Source: Planctomycetales bacterium 10988 (GTDB taxonomy: Bacteria > Planctomycetota > Planctomycetia > Pirellulales > Pb10988). From it: DNA of 64,000 nucleotides. The notes under the pieces were generated by a model, which was given only the letters and a program-made list of their open reading frames with translations, ran no database searches and was not told the DNA's origin. The stretch covers positions 2,446,709 to 2,510,708 of the forward strand of contig CP043547.1 in the NCBI GenBank assembly GCA_009664345.1. Direction: 5' to 3'. Both the position numbers and the translations under genes were made by a program. Positions 45,789 to 56,799 of this stretch are shown here, piece after piece; the first letter of the stretch is position 1; every line of letters begins with the position of its first letter.

Positions 45789-47609
45789 GTGACGATGACC
45801 GATTCTTCGTTTACGAGTACTGACTCGGTACGCAATGCCGAACCTTTAAAATATGCCCAGGTTTATGAATTGCCACAGCCGCTCCAGCTTGAGGCCGGTG
45901 GCACCTTGGAGCATGTGGCAGTAGCGTATGAAACGTATGGTCAACTCACCGACGCTCGGGATAATGCGATTCTTGTTTGCCATGCGATCAGCGGTGATTC
46001 GCACGTGGCGGCACATGACGAGCAAGACACTTCCGGGTGGTGGGATTTATTGGTCGGTCCCGGCAAGGCGATTGATACCGATCGTTACTTTGTTATCTGT
46101 TCGAATGTGCTCGGTGGTTGTCGCGGCACGACGGGGCCAAGTTCCCTCAATCCCCACACGGGTCGACCGTATGGCCCGGAATTCCCGACGATCACGCTTT
46201 CCGATATGGTTTATGTGCAGCGGGAGTTGATTCGCTCGTTGGGCATTGACCAGCTCTTGGCGGTGGTCGGCGGTTCCTTGGGCGGGCATCAAGCCTTGAC
46301 CTGGGCGACGCAATATCCGGAGAGTCTGCAAGGTTGTCTGGCGATTGCGACGAGTCCCCGACTTACTAGTCAGGCTTTGGCTTTTGATGTCGTTGCCCGC
46401 AATGCGATTCTCCGCGATCCGTGTTTTCACGGGGGCCAATATTACGACAAGCCAACGAAGCCGGAAGTCGGACTCGCCCTCGCGCGGATGCTGGGGCATA
46501 TCACGTATCTTTCGCCGGAGTCGATGCAACATAAGTTCGATCCAAGCCGCATGCAGCCGCGACAGTTGCAAACCGCGTTTGAAAGTAAATTCTCGGTCGG
46601 TTCTTATTTGGCTTATCAAGGAGATAAGTTCGTCGAACGGTTCGACGCCAACAGCTATATTGTGCTTTCGATGGCGATGGACTTGTTCGATCTCGGCGAT
46701 ACTCCAGAGAAGTTGCAAGCGACTTTTTCCGAGGCGAAGTGCGATTGGCTAATGCTTAGCTTTGCCAGTGATTGGCTTTTCTCCCCGGAGCAAAGTCAGC
46801 AGATGGTCGATGCTTTGATTGCCGAAGGGAAGAAGGTGAGCTATTGCAACATCGATAGCCCTTGCGGACATGATGCCTTTTTGCTCGATGATCGCATTGA
46901 GCTTTACGGTGGTTTGGTCGAATCCTTCCTGCATCATCTGCTTTTGCCGGAAGAAAAGCCTTCTGAAGAGCTGGAAGAAAATGCCATCCCCGTGGGGCCG
47001 ACAAGTATCTTTCACGGGCAGCGATTAGATTATGATTTGCTCTTGGACATTCTTCCGAAAGACGCTTCCATCTTGGACTTAGGTTGCGGCAGTGGCGAAT
47101 TGCTCTCGCTGTTGCAGGAGCGGGGAAACGAGCAACTCATGGGAATCGAAATCGACCCTGAGCGTGTACTGGCCTGTCTTCGCAAAGGGCTTTCCGTGCT
47201 TCAAGCCGACCTTAATCGAGGACTTTCTTCGTTTCTCACCGGACAATTTGATGCGGTTGTTCTCTCGAAAACCTTGCAAACCATCGAAGATACCGAAGGG
47301 GTTTTGCGGGAGATGTTGCGAGTTGGGCGACTAGCGATCGTCAGCTTTCCGAACTTCGCCCAACGGCAAATGCGGGAGATGCTCCACGAAGGAGGCCGCT
47401 GTCCGAAGGCTCCGGGATTGTACGATTATGAATGGTACAACACGCCAAATCGCCGGTTCCCATCGATTACCGACTTCCAAGAGTTCTGTCAAACCAAAGG
47501 GATTCGAATCGAGCAAGAGATTTATTTAGATACCGAGACCAATCAGCAAGTCACTGAAGACCCGAATCTCAACGCCCACTTAGCTATCTTCGCTCTAAGA
47601 AATGAATAA
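45789..47609 (+). CDS. metX: Fused homoserine O-acetyltransferase and MetW-like methyltransferase
   Basis: 606 residues. The GTG at 45789 is eight bases after AGGGAG and is preferred over the ATG two codons later. Residues about 25-390 are MetX, an alpha/beta hydrolase with nucleophile Ser163 (GGSLGGHQAL), Asp328 (ASDWLFSP) and His361 (SPCGHDAFLL). It acetylates homoserine. After a Glu-rich linker, residues about 410-606 are MetW, with the SAM-type motif SILDLGCGSGELLSLL and a closing LNAHLAIFALR. MetW is encoded next to metX in many bacteria and is needed for MetX activity in some; here the two are one chain. The gene converges with the kinase gene with 14 bases between stops and no terminator. 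Confidence 0.93.
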   Translation: MTMTDSSFTSTDSVRNAEPLKYAQVYELPQPLQLEAGGTLEHVAVAYETYGQLTDARDNAILVCHAISGDSHVAAHDEQDTSGWWDLLVGPGKAIDTDRYFVICSNVLGGCRGTTGPSSLNPHTGRPYGPEFPTITLSDMVYVQRELIRSLGIDQLLAVVGGSLGGHQALTWATQYPESLQGCLAIATSPRLTSQALAFDVVARNAILRDPCFHGGQYYDKPTKPEVGLALARMLGHITYLSPESMQHKFDPSRMQPRQLQTAFESKFSVGSYLAYQGDKFVERFDANSYIVLSMAMDLFDLGDTPEKLQATFSEAKCDWLMLSFASDWLFSPEQSQQMVDALIAEGKKVSYCNIDSPCGHDAFLLDDRIELYGGLVESFLHHLLLPEEKPSEELEENAIPVGPTSIFHGQRLDYDLLLDILPKDASILDLGCGSGELLSLLQERGNEQLMGIEIDPERVLACLRKGLSVLQADLNRGLSSFLTGQFDAVVLSKTLQTIEDTEGVLREMLRVGRLAIVSFPNFAQRQMREMLHEGGRCPKAPGLYDYEWYNTPNRRFPSITDFQEFCQTKGIRIEQEIYLDTETNQQVTEDPNLNAHLAIFALRNE

Positions 47610-49486: not shown

Positions 49487-50914
49487 CTAGTAGGTCGGGA
49501 AGAGCCCATGCCGTCGCATTTTGTTGTAAATGCTCTTCTCGCTGATTCCTAACTGCCGTGCAGCAGCGGCTTTATTGCCTTGACAGTAGCGGAGGGTTTC
49601 GCGAATGGCCTCCCGTTCGATTTCCGCCAAAGTCATGCCGGCGAGACCTAGCCCCTCTCCAGGGGTGCGTTTTGGAACAGGGGCTTCCAAAAGAAAATTC
49701 GAACGCCGCAAGATGCCATCTTCACAAAAGGCGGCCGCTCGCTCAAGTTCGTTCTCTAATTCTCGCAAATTGCCGGGCCAAGGATGATCGAGCAAGGCGG
49801 CCATCGCCTCGCCACTGACCCGGAAGGGAGGGATCCCTCGCCGAGTCGTAATCCGATCAAGAGTCGCTTCGATGAGTTCCGGCAAATCTTCCCGGCGTTT
49901 GGCCAAAGGCGGGAGCCGCAAATTCAAGACATTCAAGCGATAGAACAAATCTTCACGAAATTCTCGCTCCTGACACATCTTCTCCAGGTCTTGATTGGTG
50001 GCGGCAATCACCCGAACATCGACTCGCCGGGCTTTGTTGCTTCCGATTCTTGTGACAACTCGGTCTTGAAGAAAGGTCAGCAGTTTCGGTTGTAATTCAA
50101 GCGGCAGTTCGCCGATTTCATCCAAGAAGAGCGTGCCTCGATGGGCGATTTCCGCACGACCAGGCCGATCATGCGTGGCACTGGTAAAGGCCCCTTTTTG
50201 ATGTCCAAAGAGTTCCGATTCGATCAGCTCACGAGGTAAAGAAGCACAGCTGACCATGACAAGAGGTTGATGGGCACGCGGACTTTGAGCATGAATCCAA
50301 CGAGCGAGGGTGGTTTTCCCAGTTCCACTTTGCCCAGTGATTAACAAGGAAGAATCCAAGTCAGCCACTTGATGGGCCTGTTGCATCAGTTTTTGCATCC
50401 GCGAGGAGCGAGCAACCAAGTGGACTTCGCCTACCGGATCGCCAAGTGCCAACCGCAGTTGACGATTATCCTGAGTCAGTCGCGTTTTGTTTTCGATTCT
50501 CCGCCTGAGCCGCGAGAACTCTTTCGGCAAATTCAAAGCCTGAATGACTTCCCAATCATACATCTCCAAGAGTGTTTGCATGGTCTCCGAGATACTCTTT
50601 TTGGAGGTATAAGCAACCTGGACCGCATCGGGGAGAACACGCTGGACTTCGGCAAACAGGTCTTGCGGAGAAGCTTCGGACGCATCAATGGCAAACAAGA
50701 CGATCGCGATATCCGGATTGAGCGTATCGGGCAACGCACCTGAATGGTGTACGCGCGTGACTTGATATCCTGCCTCACGCAGGTTCGTCTCAAGCGAATC
50801 ACCTTTGGAACTCGGATCAAGGTAGAGAAGATTGAGTGCTTCGGTCTGGACACTACTCACTGTACTCACAGCATCCTCTTGAGTTGAGGGAGAAGCAAAA
50901 GTGGGAAGGATCAT
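49487..50914 (-). CDS. Sigma-54-dependent activator with pseudo-receiver and GAFTSA loop
   Basis: 475 residues from ATG 50914; a GTG at 50869 with AGAGGA four bases upstream is an alternative. Residues 27-140 fold like a response-regulator receiver (LNLLYLDPSS, PDIAIVLFAID), but the phospho-acceptor Asp position appears replaced by a hydrophobic residue. The AAA+ domain follows: Walker A GQSGTGKT at 194-201, LFGHQKGAFTSA at 236-246, Walker B GTLFLDEIGELP, and an R-finger region EFREDLFYRLNVL. The Fis-type helix-turn-helix (NKAAAARQLGISEKSIYNKMRRHGL) closes the protein. It should activate sigma-54 promoters. The standard sigma-contact loop GAFTGA reads GAFTSA. It is divergent from the caspase-VWA gene. 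Confidence 0.92.
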   Translation of the reverse strand: MILPTFASPSTQEDAVSTVSSVQTEALNLLYLDPSSKGDSLETNLREAGYQVTRVHHSGALPDTLNPDIAIVLFAIDASEASPQDLFAEVQRVLPDAVQVAYTSKKSISETMQTLLEMYDWEVIQALNLPKEFSRLRRRIENKTRLTQDNRQLRLALGDPVGEVHLVARSSRMQKLMQQAHQVADLDSSLLITGQSGTGKTTLARWIHAQSPRAHQPLVMVSCASLPRELIESELFGHQKGAFTSATHDRPGRAEIAHRGTLFLDEIGELPLELQPKLLTFLQDRVVTRIGSNKARRVDVRVIAATNQDLEKMCQEREFREDLFYRLNVLNLRLPPLAKRREDLPELIEATLDRITTRRGIPPFRVSGEAMAALLDHPWPGNLRELENELERAAAFCEDGILRRSNFLLEAPVPKRTPGEGLGLAGMTLAEIEREAIRETLRYCQGNKAAAARQLGISEKSIYNKMRRHGLFPTY

Positions 50915-51681
50915 TCAGGAAAGGCCCCTAATGATATCTCCTCGTACCGGAGACCCTCCTCCGCTACTCCAAAGATGGTCCTTATCATAACTCGGACAAA
51001 CGCTCGCGTATGCGTGTTTTTGTCACCATCAAGTCAATTTTGTCAGAGCTTTTGGTTCCGTTGAACGTCGCTGGACGGTCTACCAGGTGAAATGGTCTGA
51101 ATGAGTCAGGAATCCCTTCCTCGGAACCTCCAGCAGCCAGCATTCTTATTAACCCCTCAAAAGGGGAGAAGTTTCGCTTTTCCAAGCTCCAGAATAAAAA
51201 GAATAGATATTCAGGAGAATCAAAAATAGAACTTTGTTTGATCGATTTAATCTTTTTTTGCAAATATCGAGTCTTTCCTAAACGAACTGCCCTTGATTCA
51301 CTACACGTTAGTTTACTAAACGAACCAACCTAAACAGAGTCCTTTGATCAAGGAAATCTTTGTTTTTGACTACTTTTTAGGTAGCAATGAGGAACTTGAT
51401 CCCGTTTTGTGGGTGAAAGCATGTCGCCATCTCTATTGAAGAGACGCTCCAAGCCGGAAAAAGTTCGACAATCCCGCTCAATCAGCGATTGAGTCCGAAG
51501 GGGAATTCTGAGTAAGATACAGAAAGCCGACGATGGAAGCTTGCGGTCTCTGCCTTGATTCAATCATCTTGCCAGAGATTTTGAAAAGCTGTTTCAATCG
51601 CCCTTCCAGCCAGAAACCGATCTGGGTGCTGAACCGGCTTCAAGACAGTCTTCGCTAATATTATCGCTCTAGGGGATGTCA
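50915..51681. other. Large intergenic region between activator and caspase-VWA gene
   Basis: A 767-base divergent gap, long for this window. On the minus strand, about 51056-51000 resembles module 2 of the dispersed repeat (AAAGCTCTGACAAAATTGAC). The minus frames 50985-51263 and 51348-51563 have no protein character. I found no clear sigma-54 -24/-12 promoter by eye. Regulatory DNA for both genes is expected here. Confidence 0.4.
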
Positions 51682-54600
51682 ATGACTTCTCAAGTTCCGG
51701 ATTCTCCGCCAGATACGCTTCCCCGCAAAAAAAAGGGATGGCGAAGCAAGCATGCGAAACGCCGTCCGGTGGAAACGCAACATCGTTGGCAGAAAACCGA
51801 GCGTGTCCCGGAAGACATCAATCGCTGGCGATCGCGGCGGATCTGGTATCAATCGAAGATCGGTCTGTTGTTGGCTTTGGTGCTTGGCTTGCTGGGCCTG
51901 TTCATTGCAATCTTGGTCTATGCCCCTGCAAAGACGGTCCTCATCACCAATACCAGTATTCATTATGGAGCGCCGCTGCCTCCGAATACCTATGCTTCGG
52001 AAGACCTCCGTAGGTTGCAAGCACTCGATGGAGATACCTTCGATGTCGTGGCTCTCACGGATCAGTGGCGAAGTGCCGGCGTCGGGATGCGGCATCTGGA
52101 ATTACAAATCCAAAAAGCGGTTACGAACAATCACCGGCAGCAAGTCATTGTCCTTTGGTTCAGCATGCACGGGGCAATCGACGATCAAGGCGAACCTTGC
52201 TTGGTCCCACCAGGAAGCCAGCCGACGAACAGCGCGACTTGGTTACGTGTTCGCAATGTTCTCTCCCTCCTCAAAACTCCGCAAGTTCCTTCAGAATTCA
52301 AGAAGCTCGTCCTTTTTGACTGCAACCGGATTCGCGTCGATCCGGATTTGGGACTGGTCTACAACGACTTCGCCGAACAATTGATCGATGTGGTGGAAGA
52401 ATCCGGCGTTCCCAATTTAGCGGTGATCAACTCGGTCAGTCCAGGACAAGCCGCCTGGGATTCGCCGGATTTGCGGGCGAGCGTCTTCGGCTTCTTTACT
52501 CAACAAGCCCTGCAAGGAGCCTGCGATCTAGCCAGTGAAATGGGAAACGAAGATCAATCCGTTTCGGTGGCTGAAATCTATCGCTTCCTGCGACACCATG
52601 TGAGCCAGTGGGTCCGCAAGAATCGGCAAGACATCCAAGAGCCGATGCTTTTGCCGTCCGATGCTCAGAATTTTGAAGTCTCTTGGGCACTCAATCCCAG
52701 CTTTCTTGCCCTGGATACCCAACCGCTCAACAACGAGATTCCGCTATCCGTCAGCACAAAACAACTCGATACCCTTTGGAAAACGCATGACTCGCTTGAA
52801 CGGAAGGCAAGTGAATTTCCTCCGCTGAAGTGGCGAGATTATCAACAAGGGCTGATGCGGCTGGAACAGCTTGCGTTGGCCGGGATGGCCTACGAGTCCG
52901 ATGCGAATTCCTTAATGGTCAATCTCAATCGGCAAGCGAGTCAATTGAAGCCGCGTTCTTCTTCGCTTTCCCTCGCGGCTCATAATTTACCGCTGGCGGA
53001 GAAACTCGGCCGCCTGCCGGAATCGCCGGAAGAGATTTTAAAGCTCAGAGCGCACATCGATCCGACGATGGAAAAACCGAAGGACCCGCCTGGCCCGACT
53101 AGTTATCCGGCCCGCGTGAAAGCGGCTTGGGAAACCGTTCTGGAAACCCGCGATCTAACGCCGGACCTTTTGCAGAGCATTTTAAAGTTCGTTGCCCTGC
53201 CGAGTGCCGACTTTGCCCCTGGCTTGATCGAGCATCATTATCTTCGCATGCTCCAAGAAAATCTGGCCTCGAACGCTGGAGATTGGCCAGGCACGCCGTC
53301 GCTGAAATCCGGCTCGCTCTTGCAACAATCTTTCCAAAGCCGAAATCTGGCGGAAACGCTCTCGACCCCGAACGATGTCCGAACTCATTACTGGTTGATG
53401 CAGCAGATCGATCAGGGGGACACTTCGCGTCGGTTGGCGGAGGACTCCCTCTTTATTGGTCAAAAGCCTTATCTCATCGATGCGGAAAAGTATTGGAAGG
53501 AAGCCCAGACGACGTATCAATCCGCCACGAGCCGGGAGCAAATTGTCTCCGCGGCCTACACCGCCAGGGATATCGCCAGGGCGGAGATTCCGTATTTGGC
53601 CGATTGGCTGATGACGCCACTGCCGCCGAGCGAACGAAAGTTCGCTTTGGATCGCGATCGAGAGATCAATCAAAAACTGTTGCCGCTGATTGATGCGACC
53701 GATGAACTCGACCAGCTTTTGCAAAACTCCCTGCAAACCGCCGCCGAGAATGTCGAGGGTTTTCAAGAGCAGACCGATCGCGTGAACAGCCAGCTAACCT
53801 CTTTGCGTCAGGTGTTCTTTGACGAATGTAATCGCCTCGCCTCGCAGGCTCCCTTCAGTCCAGAAACCTATCGTGATATCACTTCGGTCTTAGCCATTCC
53901 GCTGGTTCCAGCGACGCAACGAAATCAACTTCGCCAGAAAGCGTTGAATTTCTCGCACAAGCTGGCCATTGGATTTCTCCCAACATCAACGGCCTCCGGC
54001 GAACGGGATGAAATACTCAAACGGCTGAAGTTGGCCGAGGTCGAATCGGAATGGAGTTACCTCGATCGACAGACCGAATCTTGGAAAATTCACCCGGTGA
54101 TTCGTATTCTCTCGACCAAGGAACAAGTCGCCTTCAATGCGGACTTGCCTCCGCGACCGCAGAATCCTAACGCGACCCAACTTGCCCAGTGGCGAGCCGA
54201 TCAACTCACGGTAACGCATCGTCGCGGGCAGGCGATTCGCCGCTGGTTGGGAAGCATTTCCAGCGATGTCCAGCAGCTTCTTAAAGATAGCGATCTGCGT
54301 CTGACCGACCCGAATCAACGGACCTTCGATGTCCGCGATCTCCGCAGCCGGGCCGCGCAACAGGTGCAAAAGGCGGCCTGCTATTCGTTCCCGCTGCCGC
54401 CGCAAAATCCATTGGATGAACTGTTCAAGTTCGATTTACATCACCTTTTGGTGTGGCAAGCGGAGCGAACGATCCGCGACTTCTGGGGTGCCGCCGAAGG
54501 TCAGCCCGAAGATTTCTTCATGCAGGCCGGAGCAGGGTATCTCGATTCCAGCCGTCGCCTCTGTCAGAGCGAAACCGGCTTGGCTCCGTTGCAAGACAAG

Positions 54601-56799
54601 CCAATCTCTCAGCTTTGGGAGTCTTATCGAGAAGTCGCCAAAGTCGGCATTCAACCGCAAGTTTCGAACTTGCTCTTCTTCGGCGAAGCCGCGCAAGTCG
54701 CTCATTCCGCCCTATTGAAAGTCCCGCCGGGGCTACCCGATGGCCGTGCTGCTTTCTTCTTGGAATCACTCTCGGAACAATCGATTCCGGTCGCCGAGCC
54801 GAATCGCGATCCGGTCGCCCGCCTCGGAGTGGAGGTCCCTCTCGGTTCGCGGAGTGATGACGAACTGAGCGTTCCCTTCGTCCTGAGTACCCAAGTGCTG
54901 TTGGACAAAGGCCCCAGCATGAATGCCCTGACGCTCTATCGGGGGCATCGCTGGACGACTCCTTTTTATAGTCAGCCGAATCAAGGGACGGAGATCGTTT
55001 ACAATCAGCCCAAGTACCCCGACCCGATCATCACGGCTTACGGGAATGCCCAACGCCCGGCGTCGCTGGTGGTGATTCTGGACTGCTCCGCCAGCATGGC
55101 CCAACCGGCTCAATATGACGAAGGTCGACAAGAAGGCGGGCAAGGGAACAATCGCCCCATCACGCGGATGGATGTTGCCAAGCAGGCCCTCTCCGCGATG
55201 CTTGCTCAGATGTCCCAAAAAGGCAATTACCGCGTCGGCGTTTATTTCTACGGGCACCGGGTCGGGCGAGATACCAGTCGGCCGCCTTATCCCATTTTGG
55301 AACAGACCACTTATGGCCGACCGATTCCGCCGAATTTAATTCCGCCGGAGGATGTCGAAGAAATCTTGCCGCTAGGCCGCTTTGAAGATGCCCAACTCAA
55401 CGAAGTTCAGTCGCTTTTGCAAACCGTCAAAGCCTGGGGAGAGACGCCTCTTTATCTTTCGATTATCGAAGCGATCGGGGCCTTTGCCCAAGAAGACCCT
55501 CAGCGAAATCAAAACATCATCGTCATCACCGATGGCCGAAACGATGTCTACAACGCGACCGATCCGAAGACCTTACAAGATGTCCTCTCCCTGTTGAATC
55601 GGCGAAATATCTCCGTCGATATCGTCGGGTTCCAATTGGAAGATTCTCAGCGGGACGCCGCCGAACGCGAATTCAACCGCATTGCCAGTCAATCCGGTGG
55701 CGATTTCTATCGGGCACAGACCGCGACCAGTTTGCTGCAAGCCCTCCAAAAGCGACTCGGCCCGACACAGTATTATATTAAGGACTCGATGGGTCGGGTG
55801 GTGCTGGATGACAATGCCCGGCAAGTGGGCCGCCAACCGCTGGGGTATCCGGTGCAAATTCCGCTCAATCGCCCCAATGAATTGCGGTTTTCAACGAAGA
55901 ATGAATACAGCGTCTTGGTCGATACCGAAAGTGCCAACGTCCGGTCCGATGTCGAATTGGAAGGAGGCGAAGGTCTCGAACTTTTCCTTACTCCGGATAA
56001 TAAGAAGTTGGTCTTCCGCCGTTACGACAAAGGCGACCCGCTTTTCAGCGACCCGATTCCCAGCCAACCGGAAGCTCCCCGCCGCTTCATTGTCGGGGCA
56101 CACCGGCCGACTTGGTTGCGAGGGGATTTAAACTTCCCCATCTCCTTACAACGGTTCGATGCCACACAGTTCACCCCGCGTCCTCCAGAGGTCTGGATTG
56201 AAATCACTCCGATTCTCTCCGGCGGATTGCCTGGGGATCCTTATACCTTTTATCAAAGAAACTTTGTCGTCGGAGAATCCGTGCCGATCCTCCAAGCGAC
56301 TGCCCGAAGTTGGCCGCAAGCCGCGAAGAAGGCGGATGTCAATTTCTGGTGGAATGAAAGTCGCACGAATCCGAATATGCGGATCAAGGTCAGCGATGCC
56401 ATTGAACGCCAAAAATCCTATCCGGACGGCATGCCGGTGACGGCCATTCCCAACGTCACATTCAAAGTGCAGTTGCGACCGCCTCCAGAAGACAGCCCCA
56501 ACGAACCACTCCGCGTAGTGGTGATCGAGGACTTCACCCAAGATGCCGAAGATATTTACATGATGCGAACGGAGATGAATCCGCCAGCCGCCCAAACGAC
56601 GCACCGCTACGATGCGGAACATCGGCTGGTCGTGCATACCTTCCTCTATCCGAATATCTCCGAATCGATCGTGCAGAACTATCAGATTCTCTTCACCAGC
56701 CGACGGGATATTCAGAAAGACGCCTGGCATGTCGCCAAGCCGCTCCGCATTGATATTCCAGAGCTTACCGACGTAATCCCCTTCAGCACGGGGAATTAG
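51682..56799 (+). CDS. 1705-residue membrane protein with caspase-like and VWA domains
   Basis: The ATG at 51682 lies six bases after AGGGG; an ATG at 51676 has no space for a ribosome site. Residues 1-55 are basic (KKKGWRSKHAKRRP). A single membrane segment spans about 57-80. A caspase-like (peptidase C14) domain lies at about 85-325. The likely catalytic His163 is in VIVLWFSMHG and Cys214 in KLVLFDCNR, 51 residues apart as expected for a caspase fold. A long alpha-helical region follows to about 1080. A VWA domain at about 1128-1345 has the metal-site motif DCSAS (1134-1138) and IIVITDGRNDVY. The C-terminal 350 residues are beta-rich. By topology the large part should be periplasmic. The substrate and trigger are unknown. 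Confidence 0.88.
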   Translation: MTSQVPDSPPDTLPRKKKGWRSKHAKRRPVETQHRWQKTERVPEDINRWRSRRIWYQSKIGLLLALVLGLLGLFIAILVYAPAKTVLITNTSIHYGAPLPPNTYASEDLRRLQALDGDTFDVVALTDQWRSAGVGMRHLELQIQKAVTNNHRQQVIVLWFSMHGAIDDQGEPCLVPPGSQPTNSATWLRVRNVLSLLKTPQVPSEFKKLVLFDCNRIRVDPDLGLVYNDFAEQLIDVVEESGVPNLAVINSVSPGQAAWDSPDLRASVFGFFTQQALQGACDLASEMGNEDQSVSVAEIYRFLRHHVSQWVRKNRQDIQEPMLLPSDAQNFEVSWALNPSFLALDTQPLNNEIPLSVSTKQLDTLWKTHDSLERKASEFPPLKWRDYQQGLMRLEQLALAGMAYESDANSLMVNLNRQASQLKPRSSSLSLAAHNLPLAEKLGRLPESPEEILKLRAHIDPTMEKPKDPPGPTSYPARVKAAWETVLETRDLTPDLLQSILKFVALPSADFAPGLIEHHYLRMLQENLASNAGDWPGTPSLKSGSLLQQSFQSRNLAETLSTPNDVRTHYWLMQQIDQGDTSRRLAEDSLFIGQKPYLIDAEKYWKEAQTTYQSATSREQIVSAAYTARDIARAEIPYLADWLMTPLPPSERKFALDRDREINQKLLPLIDATDELDQLLQNSLQTAAENVEGFQEQTDRVNSQLTSLRQVFFDECNRLASQAPFSPETYRDITSVLAIPLVPATQRNQLRQKALNFSHKLAIGFLPTSTASGERDEILKRLKLAEVESEWSYLDRQTESWKIHPVIRILSTKEQVAFNADLPPRPQNPNATQLAQWRADQLTVTHRRGQAIRRWLGSISSDVQQLLKDSDLRLTDPNQRTFDVRDLRSRAAQQVQKAACYSFPLPPQNPLDELFKFDLHHLLVWQAERTIRDFWGAAEGQPEDFFMQAGAGYLDSSRRLCQSETGLAPLQDKPISQLWESYREVAKVGIQPQVSNLLFFGEAAQVAHSALLKVPPGLPDGRAAFFLESLSEQSIPVAEPNRDPVARLGVEVPLGSRSDDELSVPFVLSTQVLLDKGPSMNALTLYRGHRWTTPFYSQPNQGTEIVYNQPKYPDPIITAYGNAQRPASLVVILDCSASMAQPAQYDEGRQEGGQGNNRPITRMDVAKQALSAMLAQMSQKGNYRVGVYFYGHRVGRDTSRPPYPILEQTTYGRPIPPNLIPPEDVEEILPLGRFEDAQLNEVQSLLQTVKAWGETPLYLSIIEAIGAFAQEDPQRNQNIIVITDGRNDVYNATDPKTLQDVLSLLNRRNISVDIVGFQLEDSQRDAAEREFNRIASQSGGDFYRAQTATSLLQALQKRLGPTQYYIKDSMGRVVLDDNARQVGRQPLGYPVQIPLNRPNELRFSTKNEYSVLVDTESANVRSDVELEGGEGLELFLTPDNKKLVFRRYDKGDPLFSDPIPSQPEAPRRFIVGAHRPTWLRGDLNFPISLQRFDATQFTPRPPEVWIEITPILSGGLPGDPYTFYQRNFVVGESVPILQATARSWPQAAKKADVNFWWNESRTNPNMRIKVSDAIERQKSYPDGMPVTAIPNVTFKVQLRPPPEDSPNEPLRVVVIEDFTQDAEDIYMMRTEMNPPAAQTTHRYDAEHRLVVHTFLYPNISESIVQNYQILFTSRRDIQKDAWHVAKPLRIDIPELTDVIPFSTGN

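Follow-up and report, generated by a model that had tools for sequence, protein, structure and literature searches.

A 1705-residue planctomycete protein that carries a caspase fold and a VWA domain behind one predicted membrane helix belongs to a family with a strong link to the type VI secretion system (T6SS), and this link rests on co-inheritance and gene order. Genes of the family recur with those of a giant partner and an exported third protein, and we infer that this trio probably forms the envelope-spanning part of the planctomycete T6SS membrane complex. The window, meaning the whole 64-kb stretch of DNA analysed here, comes from a source genome of 6.65 Mb in one contig.

Gene, domain layout and metal site

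The gene of the caspase-VWA protein is an unbroken open reading frame of 1705 codons that begins at ATG 51682 and ends with its stop at 56799, in agreement with the initial annotation. This start appears, on inspection of the sequence, better placed after AGGGG than the in-frame ATG 51676. The features are listed below.

51682..56799, + strand: gene of the caspase-VWA protein, 1705 aa, linked to the T6SS by its relatives and by co-occurrence
51671..51675, + strand: AGGGG, by sequence reading the probable ribosome-binding site of the 51682 start
51682..51858, + strand: N-terminal basic tail, residues 1-59, predicted cytosolic by the positive-inside rule (16 K/R and 6 D/E in residues 1-58)
51859..51915, + strand: transmembrane helix, residues 60-78, by hydropathy; also a helix in the structure model
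51925..52695, + strand: caspase-fold domain, residues 82-338 (81-338 align), by model and structure search; predicted periplasmic from the topology
52168..52170, + strand: His163, in the catalytic-His register by alignments
52318..52329, + strand: D213-C214-N215-R216, with Asn215 in the catalytic-Cys column
52756..54645, + strand: helical region, residues about 359-988, by structure model; no Foldseek match at E <= 0.001
54652..54981, + strand: beta-sandwich-like domain, residues about 991-1100, by structure model
55066..55749, + strand: VWA domain, residues 1129-1356, by Pfam
55792..56781, + strand: C-terminal tail, residues 1371-1700, by profile matches to distant relatives; beta-rich according to the initial annotation

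Chance is excluded for this protein, because 15 full-length relatives were found at 18-34% identity. A sequence search of the PDB with the full protein returned two myosin coiled-coil matches, at E 0.5-0.6. The single membrane segment described earlier corresponds to one hydrophobic stretch, residues 60-78, and exactly one N-terminal hydrophobic segment was found by hydropathy in 49/60 caspase-VWA proteins, the other 11 differing. The envelope location proposed earlier was judged right, and the predicted topology would place about 1620 residues in the periplasm. Some 750 helical residues had been claimed as well; the helical part itself stands (residues about 359-988), and its length is nearer 630, since the beta-sandwich-like part begins at about residue 991. 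When the helical region was compared with the PDB by Foldseek, TssM was absent from the best 50 of the 1223 matches weaker than E 0.001, and this outcome gives no sign of a new fold. Pfam showed no match to an IcmF domain in the window protein. The tail is recognisable by profile in distant relatives.

The VWA domain matched Pfam VWA_2 (E 4.6e-7, 30.9 bits, cut-off 27) and VWA (E 7.8e-7, 29.9 bits, cut-off 23.8). Its metal-site residues, which we take from the MIDAS motif (DxSxS, T, D) to be D1134, S1136, S1138, T1255 and D1284, were examined in two sets of sequences. Among the 16 sequences from the whole-protein search, a count free of pattern selection, D1134, S1136 and D1284 are present in 16/16, S1138 in 15/16 (one Thr), and position 1255 is T or S in 16/16. 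All five positions are likewise kept in the second set of 47 sequences (window protein plus 46), with T or S at 1255; this conservation is partly selected, because the two peptide patterns that found the second-set loci fall in two VWA metal-site motifs, so that D1284 is its only independent count. With Pfam above the gathering score and the MIDAS residues conserved, the VWA domain with an intact DCSAS metal site was recognised correctly in the initial annotation.

VWA-related frames of other layouts were also seen. A 1737-aa protein (G049:C254, L161:90-5303) in a genome without TssK has a similar VWA and no caspase or tail match. Short frames of 446-447 aa (G001:C17:140090-141028 and G009:C241:5356-6051) match the VWA part only, at 162-190 bits, and both of these genomes have a T6SS.

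Co-inheritance and gene neighbourhoods

Among the 57 genomes of the order, TssK (PF05936) was found in 19, the source genome included, and it is precisely in these 19 that the caspase-VWA protein matched above 480 bits; in the other 38 the best match reached 139 bits, and the matches cover short caspase or VWA stretches. The one-sided Fisher test of TssK against caspase-VWA gave p 1.6e-15 over the 57 genomes, a value inflated by its disregard of relatedness. Families f2, f5, f6, f12 and f20 and genus g12 each contain some genomes with both genes and some with neither. Two complete TssK genes accompany two caspase-VWA genes in each of three genomes (G003, G013, G030), and G036, a fragmentary genome, has gene pieces that point to two copies of both as well. 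The partner scored at least 128 bits in 19/19 TssK genomes and at most 98 bits in the other 38. The core of the third protein was present in 18/19, weakly in G005 and G047 (60-68 bits), with G014 lacking it (30 bits only); the 38 genomes without TssK match the third-protein profile at most from position 248 on.

The same pattern was seen in the class sample, where the caspase-VWA protein matched at E <= 1e-20 in 6/6 TssK genomes and 0/6 genomes without TssK. Four of these matches are strong, and G192 and G248 reach just 80-85 bits over the VWA; the stretches examined in these two show the VWA and tail and stop short of the N-terminus. In the phylum sample, TssK was found in 48/199 genomes and TssJ in 25 (24 above cut-off), all 25 among the 48. 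The phylum search for the caspase-VWA protein covered 63 genomes, namely all 48 with TssK and 15 without, and 7/63 matched at E <= 1e-20, consisting of the six class TssK genomes and G106 (VWA stretch only). It matched in 0/25 TssJ genomes and 0/15 genomes without TssK. Outside the class there are 17 TssK genomes without a TssJ match, and one of them, again G106, has a caspase-VWA match over the VWA stretch; because the other 16 have none, other solutions must exist.

The T6SS of the order also differs in its known membrane parts. No TssJ was detected in any of the 57 genomes, while the E. coli control was positive. IcmF_N was above cut-off in 18/19 TssK genomes, missing in G036 (73% complete); it was also above cut-off in G018, which has no TssK, and below it in G010. 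Of 20 IcmF_N/TssM matches in TssK genomes, 19 (two of them 5'-open) continue for 0-14 residues past their last hydrophobic segment and the 20th (G047) ends at its last membrane helix, so that no periplasmic domain follows. In G018, which has neither TssK nor TssJ, an IcmF of canonical length was observed (G018:C97, L159:997-5070), with 1357 aa in a 1382-aa open frame and four hydrophobic segments.

An alignment-based contig search found 56 loci of relatives, where the single-sequence contig search had found none. By name, 53 of the 56 are planctomycete, one is from Deltaproteobacteria, one from Bacteroidales and one from a plain "bacterium". Alignment A5 leaves out 6/47 sequences and alignment A6 leaves out 7/47. 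Three ORF families recur around the relatives, namely the caspase-VWA protein, the partner and the exported third protein. The partner has about 1400-1900 aa and, by sequence, an N-terminal caspase-like region; its C-terminus is CarboxypepD_reg-like in those scanned that gave a match, the partner at L048 having no Pfam match, and exactly one N-terminal hydrophobic segment was found in 32/36 partner proteins, with the rest differing. The third protein is exported and Cys-rich, with weak HEAT matches and once a weak Rotamase_2 match. A strict lipobox rule holds for 21/34 third proteins; by eye, some of the others have a variant lipobox and some an ordinary signal peptide. The trio occurs together in 30/73 gene strings (the window and three partner-only loci included), and in 24 of these 30 the order is partner, third protein, caspase-VWA. 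The initial annotation had called a single chain of this size with both domains unusual; the protein is nevertheless no one-off fusion, in view of its many full-length Planctomycetota relatives, the recurrent partner and exported third protein, and a distribution that follows the T6SS.

Other recurrent neighbours are VgrG, FHA together with DUF6931, VipA/VipB, IcmF_N, TssK, TssL, TssF, TssG and ImpE, and genes for FHA/DUF6931 proteins and for kinases are found close to those of the T6SS or the trio. Counted by matches to representatives, a T6SS gene was present in the examined stretch of 37/67 relative loci as a raw count (32/67 without FHA-only loci) and absent from 30/67; the 67 exclude four loci that share a contig with another locus. 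Among loci of at least 19 kb, the raw count was 29/41 (25/41 without FHA-only loci). In six genomes (G001, G004, G007, G009, G025, G036) the partner gene adjoins TssK in divergent orientation. In G005, one stretch carries TssK, G, F, E, two small unassigned ORFs, C, B, A, L, a short TssM, the partner, the caspase-VWA gene and VgrG; about 5 kb past VgrG there is a third protein with a weak match. A separate observation is a 1884-aa protein with a beta-helix and RTX repeats that adjoins a caspase-VWA gene (L044:1147-6801).

A search of the 64-kb window with T6SS representatives gave no match, and the caspase-VWA gene there is solitary, so that the T6SS link is invisible from the window. Its distance to the remaining T6SS genes identified in this genome is roughly 3 Mb, and to the partner about 2.9 Mb. 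The partner and third gene are at 5.406-5.414 Mb, near a VipA/VipB-like gene and a VgrG-clustering gene; TssK and TssL occupy 5.861-5.865 Mb together with a TssM of 633 aa; and TssF, TssG, TssE, TssB, TssC, Hcp-like and ClpV-like genes are at 5.871-5.884 Mb. TssA was not identified at these T6SS genes (5.861-5.884 Mb).

Several further genes were noted in this genome. At about 5.399 Mb, near the partner and third gene, a 524-aa protein (L054:1289-2863) gave matches to VipB (E 9.7e-55) as well as VipA (E 1.9e-14). The genome has this protein besides TssB and TssC, which are separate genes at 5.88 Mb; members of its BLAST cluster occur at ten loci, and it is possibly a second, fused sheath protein. 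A Scramblase-family protein (L143:14353-14940) stands with protein kinases beside the T6SS genes. Within the window, a sigma-54 activator (Sigma54_activat, HTH_8) at 49487-50914 is divergent from the caspase-VWA gene; no sigma-54 promoter was found near the caspase-VWA gene, and the two one-mismatch matches lie at about 39.7 kb, against a chance mean of 1.85. The 606-aa ORF at 45789-47609 looks, on visual inspection, like a fusion of a homoserine acetyltransferase with a MetW-like methyltransferase.

A possible envelope-spanning role

A T6SS must cross the inner membrane, the peptidoglycan and the outer membrane, which it canonically does through TssM and TssJ. We propose that the caspase-VWA protein, its giant single-pass pseudo-caspase partner and the exported Cys-rich protein would together make up the envelope-spanning part of the planctomycete machine. 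The caspase-VWA protein would be anchored in the inner membrane by its one N-terminal helix, with about 1620 residues reaching into the periplasm, and the trio would stand in for the periplasmic domain absent from the local TssM and for the undetected TssJ lipoprotein. Of the canonical parts, TssL is retained, as is the portion of TssM that lies in the membrane and the cytosol. The caspase fold would then serve as a binding or scaffold domain with no proteolysis, and the VWA, with its metal site kept, would make a metal-dependent protein contact inside the complex. The size, anchors and distribution of the trio are consistent with such a replacement; the formation of a complex and the binding roles of the two domains are part of the proposal. 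With somewhat less assurance, we lean towards the view that Planctomycetia possess a T6SS subtype whose trans-envelope channel or anchor consists of two giant single-pass pseudo-caspases and an exported Cys-rich protein, taking over from TssJ and the TssM periplasmic domain.

To our knowledge, there is no account, outside Proteobacteria and Bacteroidota, of envelope crossing by a T6SS that lacks TssJ and whose TssM is cut short. Among the matches listed in a literature search, seen as titles and starts of abstracts from mostly open-access literature, none concerned a planctomycete T6SS membrane complex or T6SS parts with a caspase fold. The trio thus offers candidate genes for envelope crossing in a phylum with an unusual envelope. 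If the proposal is true, the caspase fold is a structural part of a secretion nanomachine, which suggests that it was recruited for a structural role.

Against the proposal count the isolation of the window gene, with its partner about 2.9 Mb away, and the 30/67 relative loci whose examined stretch shows no T6SS gene; co-occurrence, moreover, would suit a regulator, an accessory or a surface protein dependent on the T6SS just as well. The trio could instead be an accessory or regulator of the T6SS, with a part in sensing contact at the envelope, in positioning the machine, or in the control of firing or effector loading. Co-occurrence and neighbourhood fit regulation as well as structure, the FHA/DUF6931 genes and kinases near T6SS or trio genes would suit it, and VWA domains bind ligands. 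However, a regulator leaves the undetected TssJ and the cut-off TssM of the same genomes unexplained, and a trans-envelope structure would fit the size, the single-pass topology and the export of the third protein, so we regard this account as possible rather than likely.

VWA and beta-rich domains also occur in adhesins, and the window copy is isolated, as would suit a VWA adhesin or surface protein that is unrelated to the T6SS and shares genomes with it through lifestyle. Against this stand the exact match with TssK in 57 genomes, the two copies where TssK has two, and the repeated physical linkage to T6SS genes, and such an unrelated protein seems improbable.

The caspase fold and comparison with known systems

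The AlphaFold2 model of the caspase domain, built from 41 aligned sequences with the window protein first, has a pLDDT of 94.5. Its Foldseek matches are caspases, CED-3, MALT1 and metacaspase (best E 1.4e-9), and VIA-align against procaspase-6 gave Z 21.2 and rmsd 3.2 over 220 residues. For the fold of this domain, the structure check suggested in the initial annotation came out as caspase in model, Foldseek and VIA-align alike. The profile search against peptidase C14, also suggested there, did not: the window protein gave no Pfam C14 match up to E 10, with HMMER filters dropping most weak matches.

The register of the active site was determined with hhalign, using for comparison seven of the genome's own canonical caspase paralogs, which carry (S/A)GHG and DACRN (two tested match Pfam Peptidase_C14 at 67-69 bits). 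The result showed that F-D-C-N-R pairs with V-D-A-C-R at 99.5% probability; hmmsearch gave the same register, D213-C214-N215-R216 against D-A/M-C-R, and so did a weak MALT1 match (E 0.33; LLDMCRK). The profile alignments shift Cys214 one residue before the catalytic column, therefore the column residue is Asn215 and there is no catalytic Cys. A His163/Cys214 dyad had been reported; both residues are present, 51 apart, and His163 is in register, but Cys214 is one residue off. By this reading of the residues the window protein is a pseudo-caspase, and of the two options left in the initial annotation the pseudo-enzyme is the one backed by the register.

Conservation was counted in 60 readable caspase-VWA rows, window included, leaving out sequences with an A1 score of at most 250 bits, those 5'-open and shorter than 1600 aa, those identical over residues 200-600, and one more row with a gap at the site. 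Asp213 is kept in 60/60 and the catalytic His163 in 45/60, and the catalytic-Cys column holds Cys in 6/60. His and Cys are both in register in 2/60 (L049 and L075), and in 1/16 sequences from the whole-protein search alone. Position 214 is Cys in 22/60 and elsewhere A, S, T, V, M and others; the letters H163 and C214 occur together in 20/60, out of catalytic register. In the partner family, Cys stands in the catalytic column in 0/35 readable rows. Taken with the VWA counts, these numbers indicate that the metal site is kept and the protease site is not.

An active membrane-bound caspase-like protease with altered specificity, the option favoured in the initial annotation, can claim the caspase fold (Z 21) and the frequency of His163 and of Cys214. 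Nevertheless, Cys214 is out of register, the in-register dyad is rare, position 214 is variable, and no partner row carries the column Cys, so this protease is very unlikely; the register and the conservation counts led to its rejection.

The same genome (G000:C1) also has caspase paralogs whose GHG and DACRN motifs are intact, at 4.80 Mb, 5.93 Mb and 1.68 Mb (L003-L007, L175-L177); some have, by eye, a signal-peptide-like start, and one has Sel1 repeats. According to a 2012 survey (PMC3501461), the dyad is intact in 64% of the metacaspases of planctomycetes.

Membership of an EACC1-caspase two-gene or MoxR-vWA conflict system is scarcely credible: NCBIfam NF047832 (caspase_w_EACC1) matched at E 2.6e-5, and one study (PMC7159879) reports a MoxR-independent vWA as one of the domains that EACC1 systems carry fused after their caspase, but the match scored 23.8 bits against a cut-off of 140, no catalytic Cys is in register, no plausible EACC1 gene lies upstream in the window (the longest same-strand ORF in the gap 50915-51675 has 42 aa), and no MoxR was named among the selected neighbours scanned. 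PADLOC gave no match up to E 0.01 for the three trio proteins, and a defence system was rejected.

As described in PMC7159879, EACC1-caspase systems resemble the window protein in an N-terminal caspase joined to other domains and in membrane association; they differ in that the window locus has no EACC1 gene, a score far below cut-off, an off-register Cys and linkage to the T6SS. Peptidase C14 is alike in fold and in profile similarity to the canonical paralogs of the same genome, whereas the window protein has Asn in the catalytic-Cys column and no Pfam C14 match. Compared with canonical TssJLM, TssL/DotU and the N-terminal IcmF domain of TssM are present in the same genome, and the trio would by hypothesis occupy the same place in the machine; unlike TssJLM, TssJ is undetected in 57/57 genomes, TssM ends after its last TM, and the trio is added.

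The nearest precedent, by analogy, is TssNQOPR. According to PMC10781749, TssNQOPR replace TssJLM in the Bacteroidota T6SSiii, TssR has a vWA-like domain, and each of TssN, Q, O, P and R is needed for competition and Hcp secretion. As is proposed for the trio, a TssJ-less T6SS there uses lineage-specific inner-membrane and lipoprotein components, and three TssNQOPR components are single N-terminal TM proteins with periplasmic domains, as the trio giants are by prediction. TssR and the window protein, likened by domain type alone, both carry a vWA/VWA domain; TssR has a lipoprotein signal, whereas the window protein has an N-terminal TM helix behind a 59-residue basic tail. The word caspase is absent from that paper. 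Unlike TssNQOPR, the planctomycete system retains TssL and a shortened TssM, and its caspase-VWA and partner proteins have about 1400-1900 aa. The presence of a VWA in the Bacteroidota replacement complex as well hints at convergent or shared use of this domain in T6SS anchors.
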